Part shown: one piece after another, positions 40,194 to 57,215 of the stretch
Numbering within the stretch: the stretch's first letter is position 1
How the letters are laid out: every line of letters begins with the position of its first letter
Assembly: GCA_001544655.2 (NCBI GenBank)
Contig: FCOD02000013.1
Span: 1-64,000 of the forward strand
Reading direction: 5' to 3'
DNA length: 64,000 bases
From: Caballeronia turbans
GTDB lineage: Bacteria > Pseudomonadota > Gammaproteobacteria > Burkholderiales > Burkholderiaceae
Notes under the pieces: generated by a model
Database searches by the model: none
What the model saw: only the letters and a program-made list of their open reading frames with translations
What the model was told of the DNA's origin: nothing
Made by a program: the position numbers and the translations under genes

Positions 40194-40194
40194 G

Positions 40195-41220: not shown

Positions 41221-41235
41221 GCGTCACTCCAGGTA

Positions 41236-42585
41236 CTAATGTGCTGCTTTGGTTTGTGCGTGCGCTTCGTCGGCATGCGTGCGTTGCGCGACGAGTATCG
41301 AAATCGCGGCGAGCGTCGCGGGCACGGCAAGGATCGCGAGGATCGCGCCGAACTCCCAGCCGAGGCCGAGCAGCGCGCCGCCGAACGCGGAGCCGAAGAT
41401 GCTGCCGAAGCGGCCCATGCCGAGCATCCAGCTCACGCCGGTGGCACGCGCAACCGTCGGATAACGGCTCGGCGCGAACGCGTTGAGGCCCGTTTGCGCG
41501 CCGCTCATGCAAAAGCCCGCTGCGAACACGAGCACGGCCAGCGACGACGACAACGCGCCGATCCAGGCGAGCCCGAGCACGCAGACCGCGCCGCCGAGAT
41601 ACGCCGCGCTGATGACGGGCGCCGGGCGCACCTTGTCCATGATCCACCCGACGATGATCGCGCCGATCGTGCCGCCGATCTGGAACATCGCCGTGATGTT
41701 CGCCGCCGACGATACCGTGAGCCCCGCGTCCTTCATCAGCGTCGGCAGCCAGCCGGTGAGCAGGTAGATCACGAGCAGGCCCATGAAATAGGTCGCCCAC
41801 AGCGCGGCCGTCATCAGGCCGTAGCCATGCGAAAACAACACGCCGATGGGCTTCTTCGTCGGCAGCGGCGGCTCGTTCGATACGAACGTCTCCGTGCCGT
41901 CGAAGCGCGCGCCGCATACGCGGCCGAGCACCTTGCCGATGCGTGCCGAGCTCGCGCCGCGCACCGCGAGCAGACGCGCCGATTCGGGCAGCAGCCAGAT
42001 TTGCAGCGGAATCAGCACGAGCGGCAGCGCGCCGCCACAGATCAGCACGGAGCGCCAGCCGTGCACCGGAATCAAGGCGCCGGCGAGGAAGCCGATCAGC
42101 GCCGAGCCGAGATTGAAGCCCGTGAACATGATCGTGATCAGTAGCGCGCGCTTGCGTTGCGGCGCGTACTCGGAGAGCAGCGTCGTCGTATTGGGCATCG
42201 CGGCGCCGAGGCCGATGCCGGTCAGCACGCGCAGCAAGGCCATGCTCGAAGGCGAATTCGTGAACGCGGTGGCGATCGTGAACACGCCGAAGAGAAACAC
42301 CGACGCAATCAGAACCCACTTGCGTCCGATGCGATCCGACGCCGGGCCTGCCGCGAGCGCGCCGATCACGAGACCAATGGGCGCCGCGCTCATCACGAGG
42401 CCGAACGCGGGCCGCGAGATGTGCCAGTCCGCGATGATCGAAGGCGCGACGAAGCCCATGATCGCGACATCCATGCCGTCGGCCGTCACGATCAGAAAGC
42501 ACAGCGCCACCAGCAGCCACTGGTAGGCGGAAATCGGGCGTTCGTCGATGAAGCCCTTGATGTCGATGGTTTTACCGATAGTCAT
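41236..42585 (-). CDS. AAHS-family aromatic acid:H+ symporter (gallate/PcaK-like)
   Basis: This 449-residue MFS carrier has the AAHS motifs VTADGMDVAIMGFVAPSI (helix 1, DG-x2-D), GPASDRIGRKWVL (loop 2-3) and LTGIGLGAAMPNTTTLLSEYAPQRKR (helix 4/loop). AAHS proteins import benzoate-type acids. Lying between the gallate dioxygenase and LigJ genes, it is probably a gallate (GalT-like) or protocatechuate importer. Confidence 0.9.
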   Translation of the reverse strand: MTIGKTIDIKGFIDERPISAYQWLLVALCFLIVTADGMDVAIMGFVAPSIIADWHISRPAFGLVMSAAPIGLVIGALAAGPASDRIGRKWVLIASVFLFGVFTIATAFTNSPSSMALLRVLTGIGLGAAMPNTTTLLSEYAPQRKRALLITIMFTGFNLGSALIGFLAGALIPVHGWRSVLICGGALPLVLIPLQIWLLPESARLLAVRGASSARIGKVLGRVCGARFDGTETFVSNEPPLPTKKPIGVLFSHGYGLMTAALWATYFMGLLVIYLLTGWLPTLMKDAGLTVSSAANITAMFQIGGTIGAIIVGWIMDKVRPAPVISAAYLGGAVCVLGLAWIGALSSSLAVLVFAAGFCMSGAQTGLNAFAPSRYPTVARATGVSWMLGMGRFGSIFGSAFGGALLGLGWEFGAILAILAVPATLAAISILVAQRTHADEAHAQTKAAH

Positions 42586-42611
42586 ATGTGTCTCCCGTCC
42601 CCGTTGCCTGC

Positions 42612-43913
42612 TTAGTCTTTGGCCTTCCCGGCCTTGTCCCAGTCGAGCTTGCCCGCGCCCTTGCCCGCGACCGAGTACAGTGCACCGGGCGCATTGCGGG
42701 TCTTCTGAAATGCTTCGAGTGTTTCGCCGCGCATCGCGGCGTAGATGTGCAGGTTCGACACGCCGGTCACCGCGCCGAGCTTCTCCAGCATGAAGAAAAT
42801 CACGCCGTAATGAAGCAGGCCGCGCCAGTCGCGCCGGCGAATGAGGTCCCGCTCCTCTTCGCTGAGACCGGCCGCCTCGAAGCTCGCTTCCTCGTCTTGC
42901 CTGAATGCCTCGCGATGCGCGGGCTCGACCATGCGATGCAGATAGTCGTTGATGCGATACGCGCGCACGGCGGTTTCGATCGAGAACGGATAGGTGCCTT
43001 CGAGGTTCTCGACAACGGTGAGCTGCACCGCCATCTTCTGACGATGACGCTCGATGATCGCCGGCTTGATCTCGCTATCCTCGCCTTCATAGATCGCGGT
43101 CGCGATGCCCGCCATCGACGGCAGGTAATAGCTGCGATGCTTGCACACGACATTCGACGACAACGCGCCGCGCATCGTGAGCCACATGATGACTTCGGCG
43201 CCTTCGTAGCCGCCGAGCGCCGCATATTCGGCGATGGTCATGTCCGCGAGTTGTTCGGGATCGCGCTCGAAGAGATCGAGAAAGCGCGCGTCCCATGCCG
43301 TGTTATTGAAGCCCGCGCGTTCGCCGTGTACCTGATGCGAAAGACCGCCCGTCGCGAGAATCGCGACCTTGATGTCCTCCGGATAACTTTCGATCGCGCG
43401 GCGCAGCGCCTGACCCAGCTTGTAGAAGCGGCGCGCGCTCGGCACGGGCAATTGCAGCACGCCCATTTGCAGCGGCACGAGCTTCACCGGCCATTCGGGT
43501 TCGTGCGGGCACAGCATCGAAAGCGGCGAGAAGCAGCCGTGATCGAGCGCCTTGTTCTGGAAGAACGACATGTCGAATTCGTCGGACATCAGCGACGTGC
43601 CGATGTGCGCGGCAAGCGCCGGATGACCCTTGATCGGCGGCAGGTCGCGTGCGCCGCCGCCTTCGTCCGCAACGCGCCATTGCGGTCCTACGCCGAGTGC
43701 GAATGCGGAGTAGTGATCGAAGAAGAATGACGTGACGTGGTCGTTGTAGATCGTGACGATGACATCGGGCTGCTTCTCCGCGAGCCAGTTCGTGAGCGGC
43801 GCGAAGTTCTCGAAGATCGGCGCCCAGACGGGATCGTCGCGTTTGTTCTTGTCGAACGCGAAACCGATAGTCGGTGTGTGCGAGGCGGCAATGCCTCCGA
43901 TGATCCGTGCCAT
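42612..43913 (-). CDS. galA: Gallate dioxygenase (fused LigB-LigA class III extradiol dioxygenase)
   Basis: This 433-residue protein has an N-terminal LigB catalytic domain (MARIIGGIAASHTPTIGFAFD, TIYNDHVTSFFFD, ILATGGLSHQVHGERAGFNN; Fe(II) ligands His12 and His about 61 with a later Glu) and a C-terminal LigA-like domain (about 320-420: DYLHRMVEPAHREAF ... RDWRGLLHYGVIFFMLEKLGAVTG). The fused architecture and length match gallate dioxygenases (GalA/DesZ) rather than two-subunit LigAB. It cleaves gallate to 4-oxalomesaconate. The start at 43913 is the conserved Met-Ala-Arg. Confidence 0.86.
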   Translation of the reverse strand: MARIIGGIAASHTPTIGFAFDKNKRDDPVWAPIFENFAPLTNWLAEKQPDVIVTIYNDHVTSFFFDHYSAFALGVGPQWRVADEGGGARDLPPIKGHPALAAHIGTSLMSDEFDMSFFQNKALDHGCFSPLSMLCPHEPEWPVKLVPLQMGVLQLPVPSARRFYKLGQALRRAIESYPEDIKVAILATGGLSHQVHGERAGFNNTAWDARFLDLFERDPEQLADMTIAEYAALGGYEGAEVIMWLTMRGALSSNVVCKHRSYYLPSMAGIATAIYEGEDSEIKPAIIERHRQKMAVQLTVVENLEGTYPFSIETAVRAYRINDYLHRMVEPAHREAFRQDEEASFEAAGLSEEERDLIRRRDWRGLLHYGVIFFMLEKLGAVTGVSNLHIYAAMRGETLEAFQKTRNAPGALYSVAGKGAGKLDWDKAGKAKD

Positions 43914-44210
43914 GTGCGCTACTCCTTCAGAATGCGTAAGCCCGAAGGGTAGCGATGAAGGCAGCGTGGCTGGTACTACGCGTAAACCACCATCTTGCTT
44001 TTGCGGATAGGGTTCTGACGCGTGGAAAGCCCGGTGGGACGGCCGCAGCGAGGCGTGCGGCCGCCTACTACCAGCGATATGTCGATAAACAAAACTGATG
44101 GCTCGTGAAGCAGGACGCAAGAGGTCGCGAGAAACCGTCTGGGTCAGGTCCACGGCAATGAGCGAGGCGTGATCTTCGGACAAGATCCATCAAGCGTACA
44201 GACGGTACCC
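43914..44210. promoter_or_regulatory. Gallate operon promoter region / 3-prime end of the Nit1C operon
   Basis: This 297-bp gap has no gene. It contains a GC hairpin CGGCCGCA-N8-TGCGGCCG (44040-44063), which lacks a T-run but could end the Nit1C operon. It also contains a distant inverted pair, GCTGGTACTAC (43969-43979) and CTACTACCAGC (44065-44075), that might be regulator contacts for galA. Confidence 0.4.
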
Positions 44211-46316
44211 TTATTCGAGGACTCGCGTGCGTTCTGGCACGCGCCGGGTCAACCCACCGAGGCGGCTCGTTTCAATCAGCCGCACAAGCCGCTCGACGAT
44301 CTCGTGTACGGTTGTCCCCGGTCCGAAGATTTCTGCCACGCCTATGTTCCGCAGAGAAAGCGCGTCTTGATCTGGCACGATCCCGCCGACGACTACCGGC
44401 GCACATACGTCTATTTCTCCAAGCTCGCGCATGAATTGAAGGACGAGACTTCCATGCGCTCCCGCGAGCGACGAAATACCGATCACGTCGCATCCTTCTT
44501 TCCCGGCAATCCTCGCTGCACGCGTCGGCGAAGCAAACAGGCCGCTCATCGCTACATCGAAGCCCGCGTCCTTCAGCGCCGCCGACACCACGTTCGCGCC
44601 GCGATCGTGTCCGTCGAGTCCGAGTTTTGCCATCAGCAGGCGTGGTCTTCTGCCTAGCTTTTTCGCGAGACGCGCTACCTGTGCCCTCACCGCATGCCAT
44701 GCCTCGTCCTCTCCACATCGTGTTCCATACGCATTCGACACAACGCCGGATGCCTGCACATGGCGCGGCCAAACTGCTTCAAGGGCACGCGTGCATTCAC
44801 CCACCGTCGCCCGTGCGCGCATGCAATCGATTGTCAGTGCAAGCAGGTTTGCGGCATCGTCGTGTGCGGCGCGAGTCAATGCCGAGAGCGTCGTGCTCAC
44901 CCGATACTCGTCGCGTCGGCGCTTGACGTCGGAAATTCTGCGCGACTGTTGCACGCGCACACGTTCCCCATCGATTGCGACACATTCGGGAGCATCATCA
45001 TCTGCCTCGATTGCCGGAAAGGCGTTGGTGCCGACGATCACCTGTTTCCCCGCATCGATGCGCGCCTGCGTCGCCGCCGCGCTTGCTCGAATCTGCTGCT
45101 GAACCCAGCCCGTGCGAATCGCCTCGCGCGCGCCGCCGCCCGCCTCGATTGCGTCGATCATGTCGCGCGCCCGCCCGGCAAGATCCGCCGTCAGCGATTC
45201 CATCATGTACGAGCCGGCCCACGGATCGATCACGTCGCACAAGCCCATTTCGTGCTGAAGGATGAGTTGCGTGTCGCGCGCGAGTTGCGAAGCCGATGCG
45301 GATGGCAGCGCGAGCGCCTCGTCATGCGCATTCGTGTGCAGCGACTGCGTTCCGCCGAACACGGCCGCCATCGCCTCGACGGTCGTACGCACGATGTTGT
45401 TATGCGTGCGCGTCGGGCTGAGCGACCAGCCCGAAGTCTGGCAGTGCATGCGTAGCGCACGGCCTTTCGGCGTGCTCGCACCCTCTTCGGCCGCGATTCT
45501 CGACCACAGCAAGCGCGCCGCGCGCAGTTTCGCGATCTCTGTATAAAAGTCCGTTCCGGCGCCGAAGAAAAAGCTCAGTTGCTCGCAAACGGCATTGGCC
45601 TCCAGGCCGCGCGCACGCAACGCGCGAAGATATTCGCGGGCATTCGCGAACGTGAGCGCAAGTTCGAGCGATGCATCCGCGCCCGCTTCCTGAAAGTGAT
45701 AGCCCGACACGGAAAGCGCCTTGAAGCGCGGCATGTGTTCGTTCAGAAACTGCGCGACATCCGCGACGATGCGCATCGACGGTTCCGGCGCGAACACGTA
45801 GGCATTGCGCACCATGAACTCCTTGAGGATGTCGTTCTGCACCGTGCCCGAGAGCGAATCCATCGCGATGCCGCGCTCTTCGGCCGCGACGATGAAAGCG
45901 GCGAGTACCGGCAGCACTGCGCCGTTCATCGTCATCGAGACGGACACGCGATCGAGCGCGATGCCTTCGAAGAGACGCGCCATGTCGTCGACAGTATCGA
46001 TCGCCACGCCTGCGAGGCCGACGTCCGGGCATGCTTCGCGATCGGTGGAATCGTAGCCGAGCTGCGTCGGCAGATCGAAGGCCACAGACAGGCCTTGCGC
46101 CCCGTGTGCGAGCGCCTTGCGAAACGCGAGATTCGAATCTGCGGCGTCCGCATAACCGGCGTACTGGCGAATGGTCCAGGGTTTCGCCGTGTACATGGAG
46201 GCATACGGTCCGCGCACGAATGGTTGCGCGCCGGGTTGCGAACCGAGATGCTCGATGCGGTCAAGATCCGCCGAAGTGTAAAGCGGCTTCAATGGAACGC
46301 GTCGCGGACGGCTCAT
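44211..46316 (-). CDS. Methylmalonyl-CoA mutase (single-chain, B12-dependent), last gene of the Nit1C operon
   Basis: This 701-residue mutase has the TIM-barrel substrate domain (KPWTIRQYAGYADAADSN, GLSVAFDLPTQLGYDS, TVQNDILKEFMVRN, LSVSGYHFQEAGA) and a C-terminal B12 domain (LLMAKLGLDGHDRG, with the DxHxxG cobalamin-His motif). Tyr in RQYAG is the residue typical of methylmalonyl-CoA mutase; isobutyryl- and hydroxyisobutyryl-CoA mutases carry Phe or Ile there. It interconverts succinyl- and methylmalonyl-CoA. The start at 46316 overlaps the LnmK-like stop (ATGA). No MeaB chaperone gene is nearby. Confidence 0.85.
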   Translation of the reverse strand: MSRPRRVPLKPLYTSADLDRIEHLGSQPGAQPFVRGPYASMYTAKPWTIRQYAGYADAADSNLAFRKALAHGAQGLSVAFDLPTQLGYDSTDREACPDVGLAGVAIDTVDDMARLFEGIALDRVSVSMTMNGAVLPVLAAFIVAAEERGIAMDSLSGTVQNDILKEFMVRNAYVFAPEPSMRIVADVAQFLNEHMPRFKALSVSGYHFQEAGADASLELALTFANAREYLRALRARGLEANAVCEQLSFFFGAGTDFYTEIAKLRAARLLWSRIAAEEGASTPKGRALRMHCQTSGWSLSPTRTHNNIVRTTVEAMAAVFGGTQSLHTNAHDEALALPSASASQLARDTQLILQHEMGLCDVIDPWAGSYMMESLTADLAGRARDMIDAIEAGGGAREAIRTGWVQQQIRASAAATQARIDAGKQVIVGTNAFPAIEADDDAPECVAIDGERVRVQQSRRISDVKRRRDEYRVSTTLSALTRAAHDDAANLLALTIDCMRARATVGECTRALEAVWPRHVQASGVVSNAYGTRCGEDEAWHAVRAQVARLAKKLGRRPRLLMAKLGLDGHDRGANVVSAALKDAGFDVAMSGLFASPTRAARIAGKEGCDVIGISSLAGAHGSLVLQFMRELGEIDVCAPVVVGGIVPDQDALSLRNIGVAEIFGPGTTVHEIVERLVRLIETSRLGGLTRRVPERTRVLE

Positions 46317-47140
46317 GCGCGCCTCCGGGCCTTGTGCGTGAGGACGTCGGCGATCTTCCTGCCGTCGCTCGTGCGTTCGATCTCGCACCAGTGCGCCACG
46401 CGTGTCTCGTCGACGAAGGCGCGCCGAAACGTCAGGCGCAGGCTCTCGCCGACGTCGATGTTGCCGTGATAATGCAGTTCGCGCGAGACGAGCGCGGGGG
46501 TATCCGCGAGACGCCAGGTCTGCCATTCCGCGCGATCGACAAAGCCCTGGAAGCTTGCGAAGTAGAGGAAGTGCGCGCCATTGAAATCGTTGTAAGGGCA
46601 CGGCAGAAACTCGACCGGCGCGCAGTCTTCCGCGCGCAGGCCCATTTCCACGAGGCGCGGCCCCGCTTCGCACAGGCGCAGTTGGCGCGCGGCGTCCTGT
46701 ATGTCGGTGATCGCCGCGTTCATCGGCGCGATGTCGCCCTTCATTTTCGCAAAGCTCGCGCGCGCGACCGAGCGGTTGTTACGCGCCTCGGTTCGCCGCA
46801 CGAAGGTGGACATCATCGACAGCGAGGCGATCGCGCCATGTTCACGCTCCACGCGATGCTCGCTGATATGCCGCGCCGCGCCGATCCGCGCAAGCTCCGT
46901 GCGAATGCGGAACGCGTCGTTCTCGCGCACCTCGTGCATGCCGTGCGCGCGCAGCCGGATCGACGTGAACGCGGCATAGGCGCGCGTGCCTTCATCGGCG
47001 ACGAAGTCGCTGCCGGTGGCTTGCGCGAGTGCGCCCCAGTGCCGGTCGCCGCATTCCTTGAGCAGCCAGTTTTCGGACAGGCCGGCGTAGTTGAGTTGCG
47101 GCATGCCGGCGCGGTAAGTGTCGTCGTAAGGAGGCGTCAT
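46313..47140 (-). CDS. LnmK-like hot-dog-fold protein (Pnap_2097 family)
   Basis: This 275-residue protein has the N-terminal signature MPQLNYAGLSENWLLKECGDRHW, which I associate with LnmK and the Pnap_2097 biosynthetic family: double hot-dog proteins, of which LnmK is a methylmalonyl-CoA acyltransferase/decarboxylase. A second half repeats hot-dog elements (EFLPCPYNDFNGAHFLYFASFQG). The gene lies 6 nt after the flavoprotein gene and overlaps the methylmalonyl-CoA mutase gene, so it may use methylmalonyl-CoA made by its neighbour. Assignment of catalysis is an inference. Confidence 0.7.
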   Translation of the reverse strand: MTPPYDDTYRAGMPQLNYAGLSENWLLKECGDRHWGALAQATGSDFVADEGTRAYAAFTSIRLRAHGMHEVRENDAFRIRTELARIGAARHISEHRVEREHGAIASLSMMSTFVRRTEARNNRSVARASFAKMKGDIAPMNAAITDIQDAARQLRLCEAGPRLVEMGLRAEDCAPVEFLPCPYNDFNGAHFLYFASFQGFVDRAEWQTWRLADTPALVSRELHYHGNIDVGESLRLTFRRAFVDETRVAHWCEIERTSDGRKIADVLTHKARRRA

Positions 47141-47146
47141 GCTTCT

Positions 47147-48436
47147 TCACGCACACGCAATCGACACATGATCGGGCACGTTCGAGCGCTGCGCGCAGAT
47201 CGCGTCGACGACGTACTGCGCGTCGCGCGCGACGCCGGAGAAGCGTCCCGAGCCCCACGTATGCAGCCACGGGAGGCCGACGAAATAAATGCCCGGAACG
47301 GCCGTCACGCCGCGCACGTGAGCCGGATATCCGCGCCCGTTGAACACTGGGGCGTCGAGCCAGGCGAAGTCCGGCGTGAAGCCGATGCACCACACGATAG
47401 ACGTGATGCCGCTCGCCTGCAGATCGAGTTCCGCGCGTTCAGCCGGCGGATGCCACAGCGGCTCATACCGCGCGGCAGCCGGCGCATCGATACCATGCTT
47501 CTCGATGAAACCGTCGATGCTCGCGTTGATGCGGTTGTACGTGTCGTCCGCATCGTCGAGGTTGGCGCGCAGGTTCGGCGCAAAACGCAGTTTTCCATCG
47601 CGGAAGTCCTCCAGCCGCCCGAACAGTTCCATGCCTTCGGACGCGAAGCGGCGCAGGTCGATATCGCGTCCGCCGTCGCGGCCCGTCACATAGTGATTGG
47701 TGTTGTCGCGCACGCCTTCGCGCAGCGGATGATCGGTCACCGGCATGTCGTAGTAGCGCATGTCGGCCAGCCAGTCGACGACGTCGCGGCCCCGATAAAA
47801 GCGCGCGCAACGCGGCGCCTCCCCGACCGCGAGATGCACCTTGCGGCCCGCCAGGTGCAGATCTTCCGCGATCTGCGCGCCGGACTGCCCCGAGCCGACG
47901 ACGAGCACCGCGCCGGGTGGCAGCGCGTCGGCGTTGCGGTATTCCGACGACTGCACCTGCACGATGCTCTGCGGCAGGCGCTCCGCCATGCGCGGCACGA
48001 TCGGCGTGTGATAGCCGCCCGACGCGACGACCACCTGATCGGCCGTATACGTCCCGCGCGTGCTTTGGACGATGTAGCCGCCACCGGCGTTGCGCGTTAC
48101 CCGCGTGACAGCCGCGCCTTCGAGCACCGGCGCGTTCACCTTGGCGATGAACGCATCGAGATAGGCGATGATCTCGTCCTTCTTCATGAAGCCGTGCGGG
48201 TCCGGGCCATCGTATGGATGGCCCGGCAGCGCGCATTGCCAGTTGGGCGTCACGAGACAGAACGTGTCCCAGCGCTGTGTGCGCCACGTGTGCGTGAGAC
48301 TGTGCTTTTCGAGCACGAGATGCCCGATATTCGCCTGTTGCAGAAAGTAGCTGACCGAGAGCCCGGCCTGCCCGCCGCCGATGACGATCACGCCGAGATG
48401 TTCCGGCGCTGCCTGAGTGGATTCGATGTTCGACAT
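47147..48436 (-). CDS. MSMEG_0569-type flavin-dependent monooxygenase (Nit1C)
   Basis: This 429-residue flavoprotein has an FAD Rossmann motif (VIVIGGGQAGLSVSYFLQQ), an NAD(P)H Rossmann motif (VLVVGSGQSGAQIAEDL) and a CIGFTPDF closing motif, the layout of class B flavoprotein monooxygenases. The C-terminal PGIYFVGLPWLHTWGSGRFSGVARDA is typical of the MSMEG_0569 family found in Nit1C clusters. It presumably oxidises an N-containing product of the pathway. GAGGAA precedes the start. Confidence 0.88.
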   Translation of the reverse strand: MSNIESTQAAPEHLGVIVIGGGQAGLSVSYFLQQANIGHLVLEKHSLTHTWRTQRWDTFCLVTPNWQCALPGHPYDGPDPHGFMKKDEIIAYLDAFIAKVNAPVLEGAAVTRVTRNAGGGYIVQSTRGTYTADQVVVASGGYHTPIVPRMAERLPQSIVQVQSSEYRNADALPPGAVLVVGSGQSGAQIAEDLHLAGRKVHLAVGEAPRCARFYRGRDVVDWLADMRYYDMPVTDHPLREGVRDNTNHYVTGRDGGRDIDLRRFASEGMELFGRLEDFRDGKLRFAPNLRANLDDADDTYNRINASIDGFIEKHGIDAPAAARYEPLWHPPAERAELDLQASGITSIVWCIGFTPDFAWLDAPVFNGRGYPAHVRGVTAVPGIYFVGLPWLHTWGSGRFSGVARDAQYVVDAICAQRSNVPDHVSIACA

Positions 48437-48461
48437 ATCCGCTTCCTCTTCGACAAATGGG

Positions 48462-48746
48462 TCAATCGAGCGCGAGCACGGTCACGCGCGCATCGTGCGC
48501 ATCGGCAAACCGTCCCGCATCGTCTTCGATACGTGCAAGCTGATCGAGCGCCGCGGAGCACGCGAAGCCGTACTTCTCGCGCACGCGCTGCGAGCCGATG
48601 TTGAGCGCCTCGCGCGAGCGCGCGACGAAGTCGCCGACGGCATAGCTTTCGCCCACCGCGAAATATTCGCTGACGACCGTAGAGGGCGAATAGCAGTTCG
48701 CCTCGACGCCGTCCGGCCAGCGAATTCGAAAGTGCATGACAGGCAT
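48462..48746 (-). CDS. MSMEG_0570-type nitrogen starvation small protein (Nit1C)
   Basis: This 94-residue protein (MPVMHFRIRWPDGVEANCYSPS...) matches the small MSMEG_0570 family, which always accompanies Nit1C clusters. Conserved features are FRIRWPDG, CYSPSTVV and the YAVGDFVARSREALNIGSQRVREKYGFACSAA block. The function is unknown. It was placed by GGAGG upstream of 48746 and by its position between the glycosyltransferase and flavoprotein genes. Confidence 0.85.
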   Translation of the reverse strand: MPVMHFRIRWPDGVEANCYSPSTVVSEYFAVGESYAVGDFVARSREALNIGSQRVREKYGFACSAALDQLARIEDDAGRFADAHDARVTVLALD

Positions 48747-48759
48747 GTGCAAGCCTCCG

Positions 48760-49947
48760 TTATGGGTTGAGCGCAAGCGGCGCGCGCGCGAGCCACCTGC
48801 CATAGATGTCGAGATGACGCACGGCGCTTGCCCGCCAGGTGAAGCGCCGCAGCAGCGCGGGCACGGCGTGAAGGAAGTCGATGCCGCTCCTGCCCTCGAG
48901 CGCCGTGTCGAGTGCCGCGGCAATGGCTTGCGCGTCGTGCGGATCGGCGAAGAGGCACGCTTTATCGTCGAGATATTCGGTGAACGGCGCGATGTGCGAC
49001 ACCACGACCGCACGCCCGCTCGCCAGCGCCTCCAGCACCACGAGGCCGAAGCCTTCGCGCAGCGAGATCATCGAGACGACACCGGCCAGGCGATAAAGCG
49101 CGGGCATCGATGCATCGGGCAGCGCGCCGGTGACGACGACCGGCGTGCCTTTGCCGCTCACGTCCAGTCGCAGTTCGGCGGCGCGTGCGAGAAAGCCGCG
49201 CGTATAGACGTCGTGATCGAGCAGACTTGCGCCGCCCGCGAGCACGAGTTGCGCGCCGGGCCGCCGGCGGCGCAAGAATGCGAACGCTTCGAGCAGCATC
49301 GAGGTATTCTTGCGCGCCTCTATGCCGCCCACCGCCAGCACGACCGGTCCCGCGCCGAGACCGAAGCGCTCGCGCAACGCCGCTGTTTCGCCATCCGCCG
49401 ATGCCCCGAAGCGCGCGCGGTCGATGCCGTTGGTGACCGTATGCGCCGCGATGCCGCAGGTCGAACGCATCGTGTGCGTCCAGGCTTCGCTCACGCACAG
49501 CACGGCATCGGCATCGCGCCATGCGCGGGTTTGCCAGTGCGCGAGCCGCGCATCGTCGAAATGGTCGAGATGATGCACCGTGCGAATGAAACCGCGAATC
49601 GCCCCTTGTTCCTTCAGGTCCGCCAGCGCATTGCCGCCGATGCTGTCCTGCGCGTGCATCACATCGAAGAGACCGGTGCCCTGGTCCGCGAGCGTCCGCT
49701 TCAATGCGTTCATGCGCTCGCCGACCATGCCCGCCAGACCTTGCTGCGCGCCTTCGATTCGCGCCAGCACGATGCGGCACGGCGATGCGCGGAACATCGA
49801 CTCGCCCGCGCGCGCCGGCGCGAACACCGTGACGTCATGACCAAGTTCATGCAATGCGCGCCCGAGTTCGAGCGTATGCACGACACCGCCGCGCGGGTTC
49901 ACCGAATGCGTGAGCAGCGCGACGCGCAGTGTGTTCATCGCGCACAT
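48760..49947 (-). CDS. MSMEG_0565-type glycosyltransferase, GT4 family (Nit1C)
   Basis: This 395-residue GT-B glycosyltransferase has the N-terminal acceptor region (LLTHSVNPRGGVVHTLELGRAL) and a C-terminal GT4 domain with ALPDASMPALYRLAGV and SLREGFGLVVLEALASGRAVV (EX7E-type nucleotide-sugar motif). It should transfer a sugar to an unknown acceptor in the Nit1C pathway. It overlaps the upstream PurM-like gene by 13 nt; the second Met at 49938 is an alternative start. Confidence 0.87.
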   Translation of the reverse strand: MCAMNTLRVALLTHSVNPRGGVVHTLELGRALHELGHDVTVFAPARAGESMFRASPCRIVLARIEGAQQGLAGMVGERMNALKRTLADQGTGLFDVMHAQDSIGGNALADLKEQGAIRGFIRTVHHLDHFDDARLAHWQTRAWRDADAVLCVSEAWTHTMRSTCGIAAHTVTNGIDRARFGASADGETAALRERFGLGAGPVVLAVGGIEARKNTSMLLEAFAFLRRRRPGAQLVLAGGASLLDHDVYTRGFLARAAELRLDVSGKGTPVVVTGALPDASMPALYRLAGVVSMISLREGFGLVVLEALASGRAVVVSHIAPFTEYLDDKACLFADPHDAQAIAAALDTALEGRSGIDFLHAVPALLRRFTWRASAVRHLDIYGRWLARAPLALNP

Positions 49948-50885
49948 ATGAACGGCTCCTCACGCAGATTCCACAGCAAGGCGGCCTCGCTGCCGCGCGT
50001 CACGACCACTTCGCGCGAGGCATCGACTTCACCGATCACCGCGCTCGCGAGATCGCGCCCGGCGAAACGGGCCAGCACCTCGCCGACATGCTCGCGACGC
50101 ACGGAAAGCACGAAGCCGAAGCTCGGAAACGCCGTGAGCCAGCGTTCGATCCCGACATCGGCGGGACGCGGCAACGCATCGAGGTCGATACGCGCGCCGG
50201 CTTTCGAGCATTCGAGCAGCATCAATGCGGTCCCAAGCACGCCCGCCATGCTGATGTCCTTTGCGGCATCGCACAGACCCTCTTCGGCGAGCGCGGGCAG
50301 CAATTCGAAATCGGCGCGTGCGCGGCCTTCGGGCGACCCCACCGATGCATTCCAGAACGGATACGGCTCCTCGAACCTGCCGCGCAGATCGACGGCCATC
50401 ACGAGCGCATCGCCCGGGCGCGCATCGAAACTGGTCAGAAGCTTGCGCGCCCGTCCTACGATCGCCACCGCGAGTTGCGCGCCGTCGCTGCGCACGTTGC
50501 TGTGTCCGCCGACGACCGGCACGCCATACACCTCCGATGCCGCCGCCATGCCCGCGAGCACTTCGCCGGCGGCGTGTGCGCTGCCGCTCCACAGCGCATC
50601 GACGACGGCGAGCGGGCGGCCGCCCATCGCGTAGATGTCGCTCACGTTCACCATCACGCCGCTGTAGCCGGCGAACCAGGGCATCGAGCGAACGAAGTCG
50701 CTCACCATGCCTTCGATCGCGAAGAGCAGATAGCCATCGCCGTCGGGAATCGCGGCGCAGTCATCGCCGATCGCCACGGATTGCGCGTTCGGACGAAGAC
50801 GCGAAAGCACATGCGAGATATCGTTCTTGTGACGAAAGCCGCGACTCTCGCGCAGGCGCTCGACCAGTCCGGCGAGCGCGCTCAC
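49935..50885 (-). CDS. sll0787-type AIR synthase-like (PurM/ThiL/SelD superfamily) protein (Nit1C)
   Basis: This 316-residue protein has the PurM/ThiL-like ATP-binding layout: SVAIGDDCAAIPDGDGYLLFAIEGM (glycine/Asp nucleotide loop), GVMVNVSDIYAMGGRPLAVVDALW, VVGGHSNVRS and AKDISMAGVLGTALMLLE. A role in ATP-dependent phosphorylation or activation is expected. I use the GTG at 50885, which overlaps the GNAT stop (GTGA) and starts at the conserved SALAGLVERLRES helix. The longer frame upstream is not conserved. Confidence 0.85.
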   Translation of the reverse strand: MSALAGLVERLRESRGFRHKNDISHVLSRLRPNAQSVAIGDDCAAIPDGDGYLLFAIEGMVSDFVRSMPWFAGYSGVMVNVSDIYAMGGRPLAVVDALWSGSAHAAGEVLAGMAAASEVYGVPVVGGHSNVRSDGAQLAVAIVGRARKLLTSFDARPGDALVMAVDLRGRFEEPYPFWNASVGSPEGRARADFELLPALAEEGLCDAAKDISMAGVLGTALMLLECSKAGARIDLDALPRPADVGIERWLTAFPSFGFVLSVRREHVGEVLARFAGRDLASAVIGEVDASREVVVTRGSEAALLWNLREEPFICAR

Positions 50886-51442
50886 GGCAGCCTCCGCGCC
50901 AGCGCGACGAAACCGCTTTGCGGGGTCAGGCACGGCGGGTACGCGTCGAGTTGCGCGCGCATCAAATGATGAGGGCGGCCGAACAGCGTTTCCTCCTGCT
51001 GCGTGTCCCAGCGCAGACGGCGAAAGAGCGGCACGTTCTGCGCCTGCACATGGGCGAGAAAAGTCTCGCAGCCCAGCGCATGCGCGCTCGATACCGCGAG
51101 CCGGATGAGCGTCGAGCCGATCTTTCCATGCGAGCGGAAGGCCGCGTGCACCGCGAGCCGCGAGCCGCACCACACGCCCGGCTCCGTCTCGTGGATGCGC
51201 ACGGTGCCGACCACCTGCTCCGGCATGCCTGCGACGCAACTCAGCGCGACCAGCAACTGCGCGCGCTCATCGATCTCGTCGCGATCGTCACCGACGAACA
51301 CGCCCTGCTCGATGCAGAACACCGCGCGCCGCAGCGTGTACGCTTCATCCTCTTCCCACGGCAGCGTTGCCCACTTCACGCGGTATTCGACCGGCGTGTA
51401 GTCGAGATCGAACGCATCGCCGACGATGGCTTCGACGAACAT
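50882..51442 (-). CDS. MSMEG_0567/sll0786-type GNAT acetyltransferase (Nit1C)
   Basis: This 186-residue GNAT protein starts MFVEAIVGDAFDLDYTPVEYRVKWA. It carries AVFCIEQGVFVGDDRDEID near residue 40, acetyl-CoA loop elements in SRLAVHAAFRSHGKIGSTLIR, and LAHVQAQNVPLFRRLRW. This is the N-acetyltransferase that accompanies nitrilase and radical SAM genes in Nit1C clusters. The start at 51442 is 3 nt after the radical SAM stop. Confidence 0.87.
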   Translation of the reverse strand: MFVEAIVGDAFDLDYTPVEYRVKWATLPWEEDEAYTLRRAVFCIEQGVFVGDDRDEIDERAQLLVALSCVAGMPEQVVGTVRIHETEPGVWCGSRLAVHAAFRSHGKIGSTLIRLAVSSAHALGCETFLAHVQAQNVPLFRRLRWDTQQEETLFGRPHHLMRAQLDAYPPCLTPQSGFVALARRLP

Positions 51443-51444
51443 GG

Positions 51445-52557
51445 TCACACCTCGTACGATGAAAGCGACGAACATGCGCCGCATTTGCCGCAGCCCGCCT
51501 TGATATCGGCGGAACGCATGCTCGCCTGCGCGAGCATCGCGCCGATCGGCGCCAGCACCGAGCGCATGAAGTCGGGCGTGGGTGCGGGATGGTCCTCGAG
51601 CGGCGTGCCGCTGATCGGCACGAACGGCACGACGAACGGATACACGCCGAGCGCAATCAAATCGCCCGCCATATCGACGATGGCCTGTGCGGTGTCGCCG
51701 AGTCCCGCGAGGATGTACGTGCTCACCTGCCCGCGCCCGAACACCGCGACCGCTGCCTCGAACGCTTCCATGTAGCGCGACACCGGCACGCTCGCCTTGC
51801 CTGGCATGATGCGGTCGCGCACCGCGGGCGTCACCGCTTCGAGATGCATGCCGAGCGTATCGATGCCGCTCGCCTTCATGCGCTCGAACCAGCGGTCGTC
51901 ATCGGGCGGCTCGCACTGCGCCTGGATCGGCAGATCGACTGCCGCCCTGATCGCGAACGCGCTCTCACACAGGATCTGCGCGCCGCGATCCGGCGTCGGC
52001 GGCGTGCCGGTGGTCAGCACCATGTGCTTGACGCCGTCGAGCAACACGGCGGCGCGCGCCACCTCGGCGAGCTGCTCGGGTGTCTTGCGCGCGATGGTGC
52101 GTCCCGCCGCGAGCGATTGCCCGATCGCGCAGAACTTGCACGATTTGCGCCGGCTTTCGTAACGGATGCAGGTTTGCAGCACGGTTGTCGCGAGGACGTC
52201 GGCACTGTGCAGCGTCGCTATGTGCGAATAAGGCACGCCGTCGAGTGTCTGCATCGCGTAGAAGCGCGGCGTCTTCGGAAAGCTGATGCTCGCGATCGGG
52301 ATCGTGTTGCGCATCAGCGCGCTGTTGCCGCTCGCGTCCGGCTGGCCCGCGACGAACGGCGAATCCCAGGCAGTGCTCGTATGCACGGGCACCATGATGG
52401 TCACGCCATCGACGGTCACCGCCTTGTGATCCGATGGTCCCGCGCCGCCGCGCCGGCTCGACACACCCGCGCGCGGATCGACCAGTCGCAGGCCGCTCGA
52501 CTGAAGCTCAATCATCAATTGCCGGCTCGACGCCGGCAGGCTCTCTCTTGCGCTCAT
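51445..52557 (-). CDS. MSMEG_0568-type radical SAM protein (Nit1C)
   Basis: This 370-residue radical SAM enzyme has an unusual cluster-binding motif, Cys130-x9-Cys140-x2-Cys143 ([14 protein letters not shown]), in place of CX3CX2C. Its C-terminal Cys356-x2-Cys359-x2-Cys362 (CGKCGAC) may bind a second Fe-S cluster. These features, with [18 protein letters not shown] and [10 protein letters not shown], match the MSMEG_0568 family. The reaction is unknown. The start may be at 52557 or at the internal Met at 52515; both overlap the nitrilase stop. Confidence 0.88.
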
Positions 52558-53515
52558 CGTCGTAGGTGTCCTTGAAAGAAGTGACGGGCGTGGCGGGTCG
52601 GTCGTTGATCGCGAGACTCAGCAGCTCGGGCCGCGCGTAGTGGCCGACCGAATCCATCATGCGTTTGCGCTTGGTGATGAGCGACATGTCGAGATCGGCG
52701 ATCACCATGCCTTCGCCTTCGCGCAAAGGCTCGGCCAGATGCTGACCTTCGGGCGAGACGATCGCCGTGTTGCAGCCGCCGCGCAGCGCGCGTTGCAGGT
52801 TCGGATCCGGCGTAATGGCTTCCATCTGCGCATCGGTCAGCCAGCCTGTCGCATTGACGACGAAGCAACCCGACTCCAGCGCGTGATGCCGGATCGTCAC
52901 TTCGATCTGCTCGGCGAAGATCGGGCCGACCAGCGAGCCGGGAAACTGGCTGCAATGGATCTCTTCATGCTGCGTCATCAGCGCGTACCGCGCGAGCGGG
53001 TTGTAGTGCTCCCAGCAAGCCAGCGCGCCGACGCGGCCAACGCGCGTTTCAGCGACCTTCAGCCCCGCGGCATCGCCTTGTCCCCAGATCATCCGTTCGT
53101 GGAACGTCGGCGTGATCTTGCGGCGCTTGAGCAGCAGGCGGCCATCGGTGTCGAAGATGAGCTGCGTGTTGTAGAGGCTGCCGTGATCGCGCTCGTTGAC
53201 GCCGAGCACGACCACCATGTTCGCGAGCCGCGCGTGTTCCGCGATTGCCTGCGTGACCGGACCCGGCACACCCACCGCCTGTTCGTAGAGCTTCATGTGA
53301 TCCGGACCCGAAGCAACCGGTGCGCGCACGAACGAGAAGTACGGGTAATACGGCACGAAGGTCTCGGGAAACACGATCAGCTGCACGCCTTTCGCGGCGG
53401 CTTCGTCGATGGTCGTGCAGACGCGCTCGAGCGTGCCGTTCGGGCGTTCGAAATCCGGCGCGATCTGCACGGCGGCGGCGCGCACGACGCGCTTGGTCGT
53501 CAGGGCATCGGCCAT
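52508..53515 (-). CDS. Nit1C (Nit6803-type) nitrilase
   Basis: This 335-residue nitrilase has Glu51 ([15 protein letters not shown]), Lys133 ([13 protein letters not shown]) and Cys167 in [16 protein letters not shown], the standard catalytic triad with the CWEH nucleophile motif. Nit6803-type nitrilases in Nit1C clusters have been linked to bacterial growth on cyanide and may act on aminonitriles. The start MADALTTKR at 53515 is 5 nt from the sll0783-like stop. It is the second gene of the operon. Confidence 0.92.
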
Positions 53516-53520
53516 GATCG

Positions 53521-54003
53521 TCACACGGTCCACGTATGAATAACGAGCGCGTTCTCCTTGCGATGAAGCAACTGAAGATCGAGCACATCGAGCGGGTTGA
53601 TCGGACGAATGCCTTCGATGAGCGACGCCTCGCCGTGTCCGTAGAGAGCCTGCAATGCGAAGCGGCATGCGTAGACCTTCCCGCCTTCAGCCATGAACTT
53701 CTGAAGCTGCTTGTTGAAGTTGAGATGGCCGGGGAACGCTTCGTCGCCGAGCGTCGGGAAGCCGCGTTGCAGGCCGAGCGTCACGCCCGGTCCATAGAGC
53801 AGCACGGAGGTGTCGAATCCCTTGCGTTGCAGACGCGTGGCTTGCAGCAGATTCACGAAGCCGATCGAGCCTTCGAATGCGACCGTATGAAACGTGACGA
53901 GTGCTTTCTCGCCAGGTTCGGCCTTCACGTCTTCGAAAACTTTCTCTTCGTAGTCGACCAGAAAGTCGCCGTTCTTGTGAAGCGGTTGATTGACTGCGGG
54001 CAT
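53521..54003 (-). CDS. MSMEG_0572/sll0783-type nitrogen starvation protein (Nit1C), first gene of the operon
   Basis: This 160-residue protein ([80 protein letters not shown]) matches the sll0783/MSMEG_0572 family, with a DsrE-like fold and a single exposed Cys. It is always the lead gene of Nit1C clusters. The start [12 protein letters not shown] at 54003 has CGGAG upstream. A sigma-54 promoter lies about 70 bp upstream. Confidence 0.9.
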
Positions 54004-54069
54004 GGCATTCTCCGATGTTGGGTTCACGTGTATACCGTCATGTTTCATCGCGACGGCGAACGCTCAAAC

Positions 54070-54084
54070 GCAACGGATATGCCA
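54070..54084 (-). promoter_or_regulatory. Sigma-54 (-24/-12) promoter of the Nit1C operon
   Basis: On the minus strand, TGGCAT (54084-54079), five bases, then TTGC (54073-54070) matches the RpoN consensus TGGCAC-N5-TTGC with one pyrimidine change and correct GG/GC spacing. Transcription would start near 54058, leaving a 55-nt leader before the ATG at 54003. A nitrogen-limitation activator (NtrC-type) would be required. Confidence 0.75.
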
Positions 54085-54093
54085 ATGATTGGC
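54081..54093. repeat. Perfect palindrome overlapping the -24 element
   Basis: GCCAAT-G-ATTGGC is a perfect 13-bp dyad whose left arm overlaps the -24 element of the sigma-54 promoter. It is well placed for a repressor or modulator. A second short dyad, GTGC-GCA-GCAC (54252-54262), lies in the enhancer region. Confidence 0.5.
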
Positions 54094-54101
54094 CCGTAAA
54101 A

Positions 54102-54120
54102 TGCAATCACTTTGCAATCA
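54102..54120. repeat. TGC(A/G)ATCA box pair next to the Nit1C promoter
   Basis: TGCAATCA occurs at 54102-54109 and 54113-54120, spaced 11 bp (one helical turn). This is the tandem direct-repeat arrangement bound by MocR-type regulators. Related boxes lie near the MocR gene start. Confidence 0.6.
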
Positions 54121-54280
54121 AGCAAAACAAACTTGCATGCGCGACACGAAAAATTCTCGTGCAAGCCGTTGCGGACGGCCTTTCGTAGTCGTGCACGGGA
54201 GCCTTGCCGAGCGAGGCGCGCACGCTTTCAGCGCAGGAAAGCCTGTGCGTGGTGCGCAGCACACTGACGATGTGCATGGA

Positions 54281-54320
54281 TGCGATCAATGCAATCAACT
54301 GCGATCAGCGCATGCGATCT
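54281..54320. repeat. Four-copy TGC(A/G)ATC(A/T) array before the MocR gene
   Basis: TGCGATCA (54281-54288), TGCAATCA (54290-54297), TGCGATCA (54300-54307) and TGCGATCT (54313-54320) are direct repeats 9-13 bp apart. With the pair at 54102-54120 they suggest one regulator controlling both divergent units. The MocR start codon is 64 bp away. Confidence 0.65.
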
Positions 54321-54383
54321 CTTTTCTTTTGATTGATTTGTCATGCTAAGGTGAATCGAACCTTCGCCGAGGACATCGCGGTC

Positions 54384-55775
54384 ATGAATCAGCCGGCGCA
54401 TCACTGGATCAGAAAGCTCGAGGAGAGTAGAAAGCCCGCTTATCTGACGATTCCCGATCTGATCGAAGAAGACCTTGCCACCGGGCGATTGCGGCCACGT
54501 GACCGATTGCCGGGTTTGCGCGATCTCGCCGACCTGCTCGGCCTCAACTACACGACGGTCGCGCGTGCGTACGCGGAAGCGCGCAAGCGCGGCCTGCTCG
54601 ATGCGCGCGCGGGTAGCGGAACCTTCGCGCGCGGCAGGACGCCGACGTTGCCGCTCGCGGGGGGCGGCGGCGTCGAGATGTCGATGAACATGCCGCCCGA
54701 ACCACCGCTGTTGGCAGCGCGACTGCGCGCGTCGGCGGCGAGCCTGATGGAGCGTGCCGATCCGTTTCAGTTGTTGCGTTATCAGGATTTCGGCGGAACG
54801 GCGGCGGATCGCGCGGCGGGACGCGAATGGCTTCGGAAACGCGTTCCGGATTGCGATGTCGATAACGTGCTCGTTTGTCCGGGCATTCATGGCGCGCTCG
54901 TTGCGCTGGTGTCGCAGCTTGCGCGGCCGGGCGAGATCATCTGTCTGGATTCGCTCGCTTATCCCGGGATCAAGGCGATTGCTTCGCAACTAGGCGTGCG
55001 CTTGCAGGCCTTGCCCCGCGATGACGAAGGCCCGTTGCCGCATGCGTTCGAAGCGTTGTGCAAGACGGAGAAGCCGGGAGCGTTCTACTGCAATCCCACG
55101 CTGCAGAACCCGAGCACATTGACGCTTACGCTGCAGCGGCGCGAAGCCCTTGCCGATGTGGCCTTGCGTTACAACGTGCCGATCATCGAAGACGAGCCTT
55201 ACGGCATGTTGCCTTTCGACGCGCCCGCCACGCTCGCGCAACTCGCGCCCGAACTGACGTATCACGTGACCGGCTTATCGAAGACGCTGGGCGCGGGGTT
55301 GCGCGTGGCATATCTCAAAGCGCCTACGCTGCGGCAGACGCAGCGGATCGCGGGAGCATTGCGTGCGACGACGGTCATGCCGAGCCCTTTCACCGTCCTC
55401 CTCGCGACCCAATGGGTCAACGACGGCACGGCTTCAGACGTGCTCGAAGCTATTCGCGAGGAGGCATCGGCCAGACAGGCGATCGCGTCGGACGAGCTTC
55501 GAGGCTTCGCGTTCGACGCCGACCCGCACGGGTTTCATCTGTGGCTGCCCGTGCCTTCGATGTGTGACTGGAGTGCGCCGGAATTGGCCCTCCAGTTGCG
55601 CAATCAAGGCATCGGCGCGGTGGCCGGGGCCGCATTTTCCGCAGATGGGAATCCGCCGAATGCGCTGCGGTTATGTCTCGGTGGACCTCAGAACCGGGAA
55701 GATTGCCGCGAAGCGCTAAGGCGCGTCGCCGATATGATGGGCGATCCGCATCATCTGCATATGCCGACGCTTTGA
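54384..55775 (+). CDS. MocR-type GntR/aminotransferase regulator, divergent from the Nit1C operon
   Basis: This 463-residue protein has a GntR winged helix (about 15-80: KPAYLTIPDLIEEDLATGRL...GLRDLADLLGLNYTTVARAYAEARKRGLL) and a fold-type I aminotransferase-like domain. The domain contains IIEDEPYGMLPFD (Asp contact to PLP) and HVTGLSKTLGAGLRVAYLK (Lys Schiff base). The start at 54384 (MNQPAHHW) is used. It is divergent from the Nit1C operon, and direct repeats flank both starts, so it is the probable local regulator. Confidence 0.88.
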   Translation: MNQPAHHWIRKLEESRKPAYLTIPDLIEEDLATGRLRPRDRLPGLRDLADLLGLNYTTVARAYAEARKRGLLDARAGSGTFARGRTPTLPLAGGGGVEMSMNMPPEPPLLAARLRASAASLMERADPFQLLRYQDFGGTAADRAAGREWLRKRVPDCDVDNVLVCPGIHGALVALVSQLARPGEIICLDSLAYPGIKAIASQLGVRLQALPRDDEGPLPHAFEALCKTEKPGAFYCNPTLQNPSTLTLTLQRREALADVALRYNVPIIEDEPYGMLPFDAPATLAQLAPELTYHVTGLSKTLGAGLRVAYLKAPTLRQTQRIAGALRATTVMPSPFTVLLATQWVNDGTASDVLEAIREEASARQAIASDELRGFAFDADPHGFHLWLPVPSMCDWSAPELALQLRNQGIGAVAGAAFSADGNPPNALRLCLGGPQNREDCREALRRVADMMGDPHHLHMPTL

Positions 55776-56184: not shown

Positions 56185-56199
56185 TGGCATACCACTTGC
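56185..56199 (+). promoter_or_regulatory. Sigma-54 (-24/-12) promoter of the ABC transporter operon
   Basis: TGGCAT (56185-56190), five bases (ACCAC), then TTGC (56196-56199, followed by A) matches TGGCAC-N5-TTGCA. Transcription would begin near 56211, about 108 bp before the substrate-binding-protein ATG. RpoN control is common for amino-acid uptake under nitrogen limitation. Confidence 0.7.
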
Positions 56200-56318
56200 A
56201 TATTCCGAAGTCGATTTCATCGGTACTCGAACGAATCGTCCATTCGACGATCGCCAACCAGCGACCGCGCATGCATCGAACGCCGTGCGCGCCATCGCAA
56301 ACATCAAAGAGGCCTCTC

Positions 56319-57188: not shown

Positions 57189-57215
57189 CCTTTACGCCCA
57201 TATCATCCCGCATCG

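Follow-up and report, generated by a model that had tools for sequence, protein, structure and literature searches.

The Nit1C operon of Caballeronia turbans ends in an LnmK-like gene and a methylmalonyl-CoA mutase gene: a widespread variant and its putative role in acyl supply

Introduction

Why should a gene cluster built around a nitrilase end in two genes that point to methylmalonyl-CoA? The question is raised by a stretch of 64,000 nucleotides from Caballeronia turbans (Burkholderiaceae; assembly GCA_001544655.2, contig FCOD02000013.1, positions 1 to 64,000 of the forward strand), referred to here as the window. Ten co-directional genes occupy its minus strand from 54003 to 44211: eight genes of the Nit1C cluster, then a gene for an LnmK-like protein and finally one for a methylmalonyl-CoA mutase (MCM). 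Nit1C spans several phyla (Podar et al. 2005, PMC1199592) and still awaits the assignment of a product. We found that the extension by LnmK and mutase is a real and widespread variant of Nit1C. A supply of the LnmK-like protein by the mutase is well supported by comparison among genomes, and we give slightly better than even chances to a reading in which the two genes form an acyl-supply extension, the mutase feeding the LnmK-like protein and this in turn providing an acyl group for the Nit1C product.

Results

The original prediction, made from the letters of this DNA, had named the ten genes and their order, and both are borne out: in profile searches all ten proteins pass the cut-offs of NCBIfam families. 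From first to last gene they are:

53521..54003, minus strand: MSMEG_0572/Sll0783 family protein, first gene (TIGR04044, 288 bits, cut-off 110)
52508..53515, minus strand: Nit6803-family (Nit1C) nitrilase (TIGR04048, 580 bits, cut-off 503)
51445..52557 (alternative start 52515), minus strand: MSMEG_0568 family radical SAM protein (TIGR04043, 603 bits)
50882..51442, minus strand: MSMEG_0567 family GNAT N-acyltransferase (TIGR04045, 237 bits)
49935..50885, minus strand: sll0787 family AIR-synthase-like (PurM-like; AIRS) protein (TIGR04049, 469 bits)
48760..49947 (alternative start 49938), minus strand: MSMEG_0565 family glycosyltransferase (GT) (TIGR04047, 503 bits)
48462..48746, minus strand: MSMEG_0570 family small protein (TIGR04042, 128 bits)
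47147..48436, minus strand: MSMEG_0569 family flavin-dependent oxidoreductase (flavoprotein) (TIGR04046, 695 bits)
46313..47140, minus strand: LnmK-like acyltransferase/decarboxylase of the Pnap_2097 family, 275 aa (TIGR04099, 302 bits, cut-off 125; TIGR04098, 274 bits, cut-off 100)
44211..46316, minus strand: B12-dependent methylmalonyl-CoA mutase, 701 aa (NF006944, 965 bits, cut-off 876)

The nitrilase passes its Nit6803-family cut-off and the six other defining families are contiguous with it, which places the operon in Nit1C; all seven defining genes stand in the order given by Podar et al. (2005, PMC1199592), where a GT like that of the window is also noted for Burkholderia and Rubrivivax. 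What the window adds is the co-directional LnmK-like gene (lnmK) and the mutase gene (mcm), the word 'mutase' being absent from the main text of that report. The open reading frame (ORF) of the mutase (44211-46673, 820 aa) is too long, and its likely start is the ATG at 46316, which gives 701 aa; its B12-binding domain reaches 133 bits against a TIGR00640 cut-off of 57. The operon GNAT has a weak similarity to FeeM in Pfam (E 3e-5, under the cut-off). Gaps separate sll0783 from the nitrilase gene (5 nt), radical SAM from GNAT (2 nt), GT from MSMEG_0570 (13 nt), MSMEG_0570 from the flavoprotein (25 nt) and the flavoprotein from lnmK (6 nt), and overlaps join nitrilase and radical SAM (8 or 50 nt, by the start chosen), GNAT and AIRS (4 nt), AIRS and GT (4 or 13 nt), and lnmK and mcm (4 nt, ATGA). 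The spacing expected at the outset, with 4-nt overlaps or gaps below 15 nt, therefore fails at the 25-nt gap and holds at the other gaps.

Co-occurrence counts place the ten-gene arrangement beyond chance. Among 249 genomes drawn from the family of the window genome, the Nit1C nitrilase passes its cut-off in 50 and the LnmK-like family in 23; all 23 LnmK-like genes lie on the same contig as the Nit1C nitrilase, 4.1-6.5 kb from start to start. The co-occurrence search that the original prediction had proposed thus found LnmK-like genes adjoining the nitrilase in 23/23 family genomes. A scan of named genomes, whose locus counts refer to the best 80 of 112 LnmK relatives (these loci overlap with the 50 family genomes and are not summed with them), shows one or more genes of the Nit1C families in the retrieved DNA at 78 of the 80 loci and an MCM at 61, so the pair is by no means confined to a single genome, the case that would have counted against the original prediction. 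The 19 loci without MCM include two (L110, L139) that are uninformative, their sequence stopping about 120 nt past lnmK; at L141 a contig end cuts the locus and mcm alone is visible beside lnmK. The closest relatives within these best 80 of 112 come from Caballeronia glebae and C. jiangsuensis (94%). In a phylum-wide sample of 329 genomes, six contain an LnmK match above the cut-off, that of the window among them. Of the other five, three match strongly (283-299 bits) and have a Nit1C nitrilase at a distance of 6.4-7.9 kb, and two match weakly (131-132 bits) and are without a Nit1C nitrilase at E 1e-100. The association spans Burkholderiaceae, Methylophilaceae, Oceanospirillaceae, Vibrionaceae, Comamonadaceae and several alphaproteobacterial families, mostly with short gaps and overlaps. 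Fragments of lnmK occur in three more family genomes: beside Nit1C in G032 and G234 (loci L044 and L045), where frames of 124 and 134 aa end otherwise complete clusters, and at a contig edge in G037. The genomes G032 and G234 are free of PF01642 matches throughout, which would fit a joint decay of lnmK and mcm.

With one exception, the mutase lies in the operon in genomes that lack a second copy, and it was not seen there in genomes with an MCM elsewhere. We took a PF01642 match of at least 640 bits as a full MCM and used PF01642 in the whole-genome searches. Within the 50 Nit1C genomes of the family, a full MCM is present in 22 of the 23 LnmK-positive ones, every time adjoining lnmK, as well as in G037, whose contigs are broken, and in 0/26 of the remainder; other PF01642 matches in the 50 score 424-436 bits and fall within IcmF-sized ORFs (1126-1267 aa), and a second, partial match of 173 bits occurs in G146. 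The operon mutase is the sole PF01642 match of the window genome. A further search, outside the family plus Cupriavidus campinensis, covered 17 LnmK loci without an adjacent MCM (including L139, which is cut, and L135, which has no Nit1C) and six with one, L110 and L131 being excluded. A separate MCM (756-805 bits) was found in 16 of the 17 genomes whose lnmK has no adjacent one, and all six non-family genomes with a cluster MCM have a single PF01642 match, with coordinates inside the cluster. The three strong genomes of the phylum sample have a separate MCM (768-804 bits) on a different contig. Altogether, where the LnmK locus has no adjacent MCM, 19/20 genomes have one elsewhere (756-805 bits), and where the genome has no other full MCM, 28/29 have it beside lnmK. 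The same division runs through the Betaproteobacteria, with eight genomes that have a separate MCM (Rhodoferax, Polaromonas, Azohydromonas, four Methyloversatilis and one Burkholderiales metagenome-assembled genome, MAG) versus 22 Burkholderiaceae and 3 Methylophilaceae with the cluster copy only.

The (2R) isomer of methylmalonyl-CoA is the one on which MCM acts. The window mutase keeps the positions aligned with Tyr89, Gln197, Arg207, Tyr243 and His244, which we take, together with their presumed roles, from the Propionibacterium enzyme. Across 61 cluster MCMs, that of the window included, the Tyr89 equivalent is found in 60 and falls in a gap in one, and the other four positions are kept in 61/61; the window mutase has the DGHDRG motif, whose His is present in 60/61. 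Two of 16 other mutases (G257 and G264, each genome having also an ordinary MCM) carry Ile and Gln at Tyr89 and Arg207, presumably as in 2-hydroxyisobutyryl-CoA mutase (HCM), and because these two HCM-like rows differ there, the two positions discriminate substrates. Regarding the LnmK-like protein, a search of the Protein Data Bank (PDB) with the family profile retrieves LnmK chains and nothing else up to an E of 0.01 (best 7e-13), a single sequence matches LnmK with low similarity (E 1e-5), and the sole hint in Pfam is a thioesterase-like superfamily match under the cut-off. All 77 of 77 LnmK-like proteins share Tyr55, aligned to LnmK Tyr62, which we assume to be the residue of interest, as well as Asn187 in the DxNG loop. 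According to the accessible part of PMC8666670, decarboxylation by LnmK relies on an Asn in a loop of this kind and such an Asn is critical in MadB; its reference list gives the 2020 LnmK paper a title with the words 'specifying (2R)-methylmalonyl-CoA'. The MCM pattern suggests that the LnmK-like protein may act on this isomer.

Phylogeny also joins the two genes. In a FastTree phylogeny built from four Nit1C proteins (97 of 105 loci, the 8 loci without one of the four being left out), nine independent LnmK contrasts show the cluster MCM moving in the same direction in 8 on average and in the opposite one in 0 (median p 0.008). An MCM tree using 26 of the 61 cluster MCM rows splits cluster MCMs from other MCMs by one branch, which has a support of 88/87 and is recovered in 88% of 200 bootstrap trees. 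With the root of the tree not fixed, this split would fit a single recruitment that stayed with lnmK.

As to the direction of the mutase, methylmalonyl-CoA epimerase above the cut-off is found in 0/50 Nit1C family genomes, the window's included, and a search of the 23 LnmK-positive genomes that scored 39 candidates in each showed no stand-alone MeaB. The 11 strong MeaB matches among the 50 genomes all lie in IcmF-sized ORFs of 1126-1267 aa, and the window genome has one match of 20 bits (25.8 with in-frame neighbours) in an ORF of 994 aa. Since neither an epimerase above the cut-off nor a stand-alone MeaB was seen, the mutase of the LnmK-positive family genomes is unlikely to take part in propionate breakdown and more likely runs from succinyl-CoA towards the LnmK substrate. 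The signature residues, the genomes with a sole MCM, the linked gain and loss and the missing epimerase make it probable, as the original prediction had proposed, that the mutase supplies methylmalonyl-CoA to the LnmK-like protein.

Split sets occur in four genomes, three of which have a small lnmK set plus a full Nit1C. Caballeronia sp. dw_19 has sll0783-GNAT-flavoprotein-lnmK-mcm (L094) and a full LnmK-free Nit1C elsewhere (L173); the L094 GNAT is nearest by path, without strong support, to GNATs of LnmK-positive clusters, and the other GNAT of this strain groups with LnmK-negative ones (98). Ralstonia sp. NFACC01 (L108) carries GNAT-lnmK-mcm immediately upstream of a complete cluster that includes a GNAT of its own, and a Paraburkholderia MAG, which may be chimeric, has flavoprotein-lnmK-mcm (L088) and a full cluster elsewhere (L174). 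The fourth, Hansschlegelia plantiphila, divides the genes into sll0783-nitrilase-radical SAM-flavoprotein-lnmK (L151) and, separately, GNAT-AIRS-GT-MSMEG_0570-flavoprotein (L175). A flavoprotein copy stays with lnmK in 3/4 split sets and a GNAT copy in 2/4, and these partners would point to an acylation step, short of proof.

More weakly matching LnmK relatives are found in different surroundings. In Azospirillum one accompanies a phosphopantetheine-binding protein within a polyketide synthase (PKS) cluster, and in Thalassospira one accompanies an acyl carrier protein (ACP) and a gene of the nonribosomal peptide synthetase type. A plasmid protein of Roseobacter litoralis (L169, 8323-9780), within a polysaccharide cluster, fuses a hexapeptide acyltransferase to an LnmK domain, which suggests that LnmK domains may feed other acyltransferases.

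A glycosylated product, also foreseen in the original prediction, is not borne out: the GT, present in the window, is missing from 39 of the 57 complete clusters with LnmK and MCM and found in 18. Clusters with LnmK only have it in 12 of 15 (3 without) and LnmK-negative clusters in 19 of 24 (5 without), with Fisher p of 0.001 and 0.0002. The GT varies at the AIRS-MSMEG_0570 junction even between close relatives, being absent from C. glebae (L072), which is 97% identical to the window over four core proteins. To judge from this distribution, glycosylation is not a fixed part of the putative pathway. The idea that LnmK and MCM replace the GT was rejected, given that across 11 independent MCM contrasts the GT moved oppositely in about 4, in the same direction in 0 and not at all in about 7 (median p 0.125).

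Two features lie upstream of the operon:

54070..54084, minus strand: sigma-54-type promoter-like site TGGCA-N6-TTGC, 67-81 nt upstream of the first gene
54333..55775, plus strand: divergent MocR-type regulator (GntR plus aminotransferase fold; Pfam GntR and Aminotran_1_2)

The sigma-54-type motif has two matches in the window against 0.44 expected. A wider form, TGG[CT]A-N6-TTGC, occurs in the 250 nt before the first gene at 84/98 loci, where letter shuffles give 0.1. It is found at 56/58 loci with LnmK and MCM, 21/23 LnmK-negative, 5/15 LnmK-only and 2/2 unclassed ones, these loci being related and not independent. The motif is the one sign here of a possible induction by nitrogen limitation. 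The region 43900-54500 yielded no sigma-70-like promoter, and terminator-like sites there show no excess (7 against 8.9 in shuffles). The nearest NCBIfam model of the MocR-type regulator is the ectoine regulator EhuR (373 bits, cut-off 480), and such a regulator was found or is annotated beside several relatives of the operon. The second sigma-54-type motif (56185-56199) lies about 200 nt upstream of the called start of an ABC transporter operon of the polar amino-acid type (56185-59385, plus strand; binding protein, two permeases, ATPase), which is possibly part of the same nitrogen response. Downstream of the mutase, 39513-43913 (minus strand) holds a gallate dioxygenase, an aromatic-acid transporter, an amidohydrolase and an RraA-like aldolase, apparently a gallate degradation run with no obvious relation to the mutase. 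A second nitrilase-like gene (25716-26729, minus strand), at 218 bits under the Nit6803 cut-off of 503 and not of Nit1C, runs with EutA-like, fumarylacetoacetate-hydrolase family, cupin and amino-acid permease genes.

Discussion

The acyl-supply extension that we favour would proceed in three steps. The in-operon mutase would convert succinyl-CoA to (2R)-methylmalonyl-CoA, a step supported by comparison; the LnmK-like protein, by its homology, would then decarboxylate and/or transfer this isomer, giving a propionyl (or methylmalonyl) thioester; and the acyl group could, speculatively, be placed on the Nit1C product, most likely via the operon GNAT, the acceptor being perhaps an amine or hydroxylamine made with the help of the flavoprotein. 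Transfer or decarboxylation onto a Nit1C intermediate, as first proposed, is plausible. LnmK-positive clusters would thus make a propionylated or methylmalonylated product and LnmK-negative ones the same product bearing a different acyl group, acetyl for example. A cluster copy of MCM would be dispensable in species that have a housekeeping one, and species without one would carry it in the cluster.

The gene order has been in print since 2016, with no interpretation in the accessible part of its source. The NitraS-ATII operon of the Red Sea Atlantis II, whose nitrilase is 98% identical to one of Cupriavidus basilensis, likewise has a putative methylmalonyl-CoA mutase at its end, preceded by a conserved hypothetical protein, but there this eighth gene is not named LnmK-like and the mutase is given no role (PMC4751646). 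This is the sole paper of the open-licence literature that pairs 'Nit1C' with 'methylmalonyl'; 'Pnap_2097' and 'TIGR04099' have no occurrence among the matches listed in that literature, and neither 'methylmalonyl' nor 'LnmK' appears in the main text of a genomic survey of Nit1C in Pseudomonas from 2024. In public records, plasmids of Caballeronia zhejiangensis and Burkholderia anthina already carry a gene annotated as 'Pnap_2097 family protein' next to scpA. LnmK of leinamycin (PDB 4hzn-4hzp, 6x7l-6x7p) and LrgK of largimycin (PMC9396626) belong to the same family above the cut-off, with the Tyr and Asn aligned and a presumed methylmalonyl substrate; however, as far as the accessible text describes, they accompany a discrete ACP and a hydroxymethylglutaryl (HMG) synthase in PKS clusters, and the window operon has neither. 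The malonyl-ACP decarboxylases MadA and MadB (PMC8666670, accessible part) offer another hot-dog decarboxylase, MadA being joined to a GNAT domain much as lnmK stands beside GNAT in L108, but they differ in having a single hot dog, a malonyl substrate and a role in fatty acid initiation. A supposed link of Nit1C to viridisamide found no support: among the matches listed, the papers on viridisamide concern cyanobacteria, and none shows Nit1C in its title or at the start of its abstract.

Several points weigh against the proposed acyl-supply extension. The window operon has no carrier-protein gene, whereas LnmK acts on an ACP; Pfam gave no PP-binding match among the ten operon proteins, though a housekeeping ACP may serve. 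Cupriavidus campinensis (L111, G069) keeps lnmK with no full MCM and is the exception in both tallies of mutase location. It is also one of only two changes of the MCM label on the LnmK tree, and because the evolutionary switches are so few, less weight falls on the complementarity of the mutase copies; alphaproteobacteria, moreover, commonly carry MCM anyway. Joint gain and loss of lnmK and mcm may be partly due to their linkage as neighbours. An epimerase is also not found in the eight betaproteobacterial genomes with a housekeeping MCM, so it was dropped as a discriminator and is used against a catabolic role only. A co-evolution of GNAT with LnmK was rejected, the GNAT tree having 11 LnmK changes, inside the range of 10-13 of other Nit1C genes; the small-set GNAT of L108 is nearest to that of an LnmK-negative cluster, and the lnmK set of Hansschlegelia plantiphila (L151) has no GNAT. 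Finally, Polaromonas glacialis (L135) has lnmK without an adjoining Nit1C gene, in a genome without an sll0787-type AIRS above the cut-off.

A different explanation may be that mutase and LnmK-like protein form a general route from succinyl-CoA to propionyl-CoA for bulk metabolism under nitrogen starvation, polyhydroxyalkanoate (PHA) for instance, and leave the Nit1C product untouched. The Sbm/YgfG pathway is an analogue, and the joint action of an MCM and a decarboxylase would amount to such a conversion. The operon has its sigma-54-type site, and an abstract on polyhydroxybutyrate in Synechocystis names an sll0783 mutation (PMC3901256). We consider this route unlikely nonetheless, as small sets hold GNAT and/or the Nit1C flavoprotein beside lnmK-mcm, LnmK stays beside Nit1C in hosts with MCM elsewhere, the shortened lnmK of G032 and G234 coincides with no MCM, and no CoA-transferase, MeaB or PHA gene follows the mutase in the window and two annotated plasmids.

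Unlikely to a similar degree is that the LnmK-like protein works without decarboxylation, moving an intact methylmalonyl group or acting as an editing thioesterase. Hot-dog proteins catalyse many thioester reactions, and the low similarity to LnmK, together with the thioesterase-like hint of Pfam, would agree with such a role. On the other side stand the invariant loop Asn and Tyr, the Asn being the residue said to catalyse decarboxylation in LnmK (PMC8666670).

A catabolic mutase that clears propionyl or methylmalonyl units from nitrile breakdown would recall the tie of Nit1C and its nitrilase to cyanide use in Pseudomonas, as given in the accessible part of that literature, but we hold it to be quite improbable, given that no epimerase passes the cut-off in the 50 Nit1C genomes, that no stand-alone MeaB was seen among 39 candidates in each of the 23 LnmK-positive ones, and that LnmK would compete for the same substrate. 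That lnmK and mcm are mere passengers sharing no function with Nit1C is the most improbable of all, for although only 23/50 family Nit1C clusters have an intact lnmK (27 having none or fragments), the association holds over many families, mostly with short gaps or overlaps and with correlated gain and loss.

Returning to the acyl-supply extension, we would put forward, tentatively and at somewhat less than even chances, that there is one core Nit1C metabolite with an exchangeable acyl group, to which LnmK-positive lineages add propionyl or methylmalonyl from succinyl-CoA, keeping a B12 mutase for this alone. A methylmalonyl-CoA-derived carbon unit in the Nit1C product, if present, would give a mass and isotope handle for finding it, and B12 dependence and the comparison of strains with LnmK-positive and LnmK-negative clusters may provide further ones. 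If the reading is true, an MCM would be at work outside propionate catabolism and polyketide supply, and the sole MCM of Caballeronia and its relatives would be a biosynthetic enzyme of nitrogen starvation.

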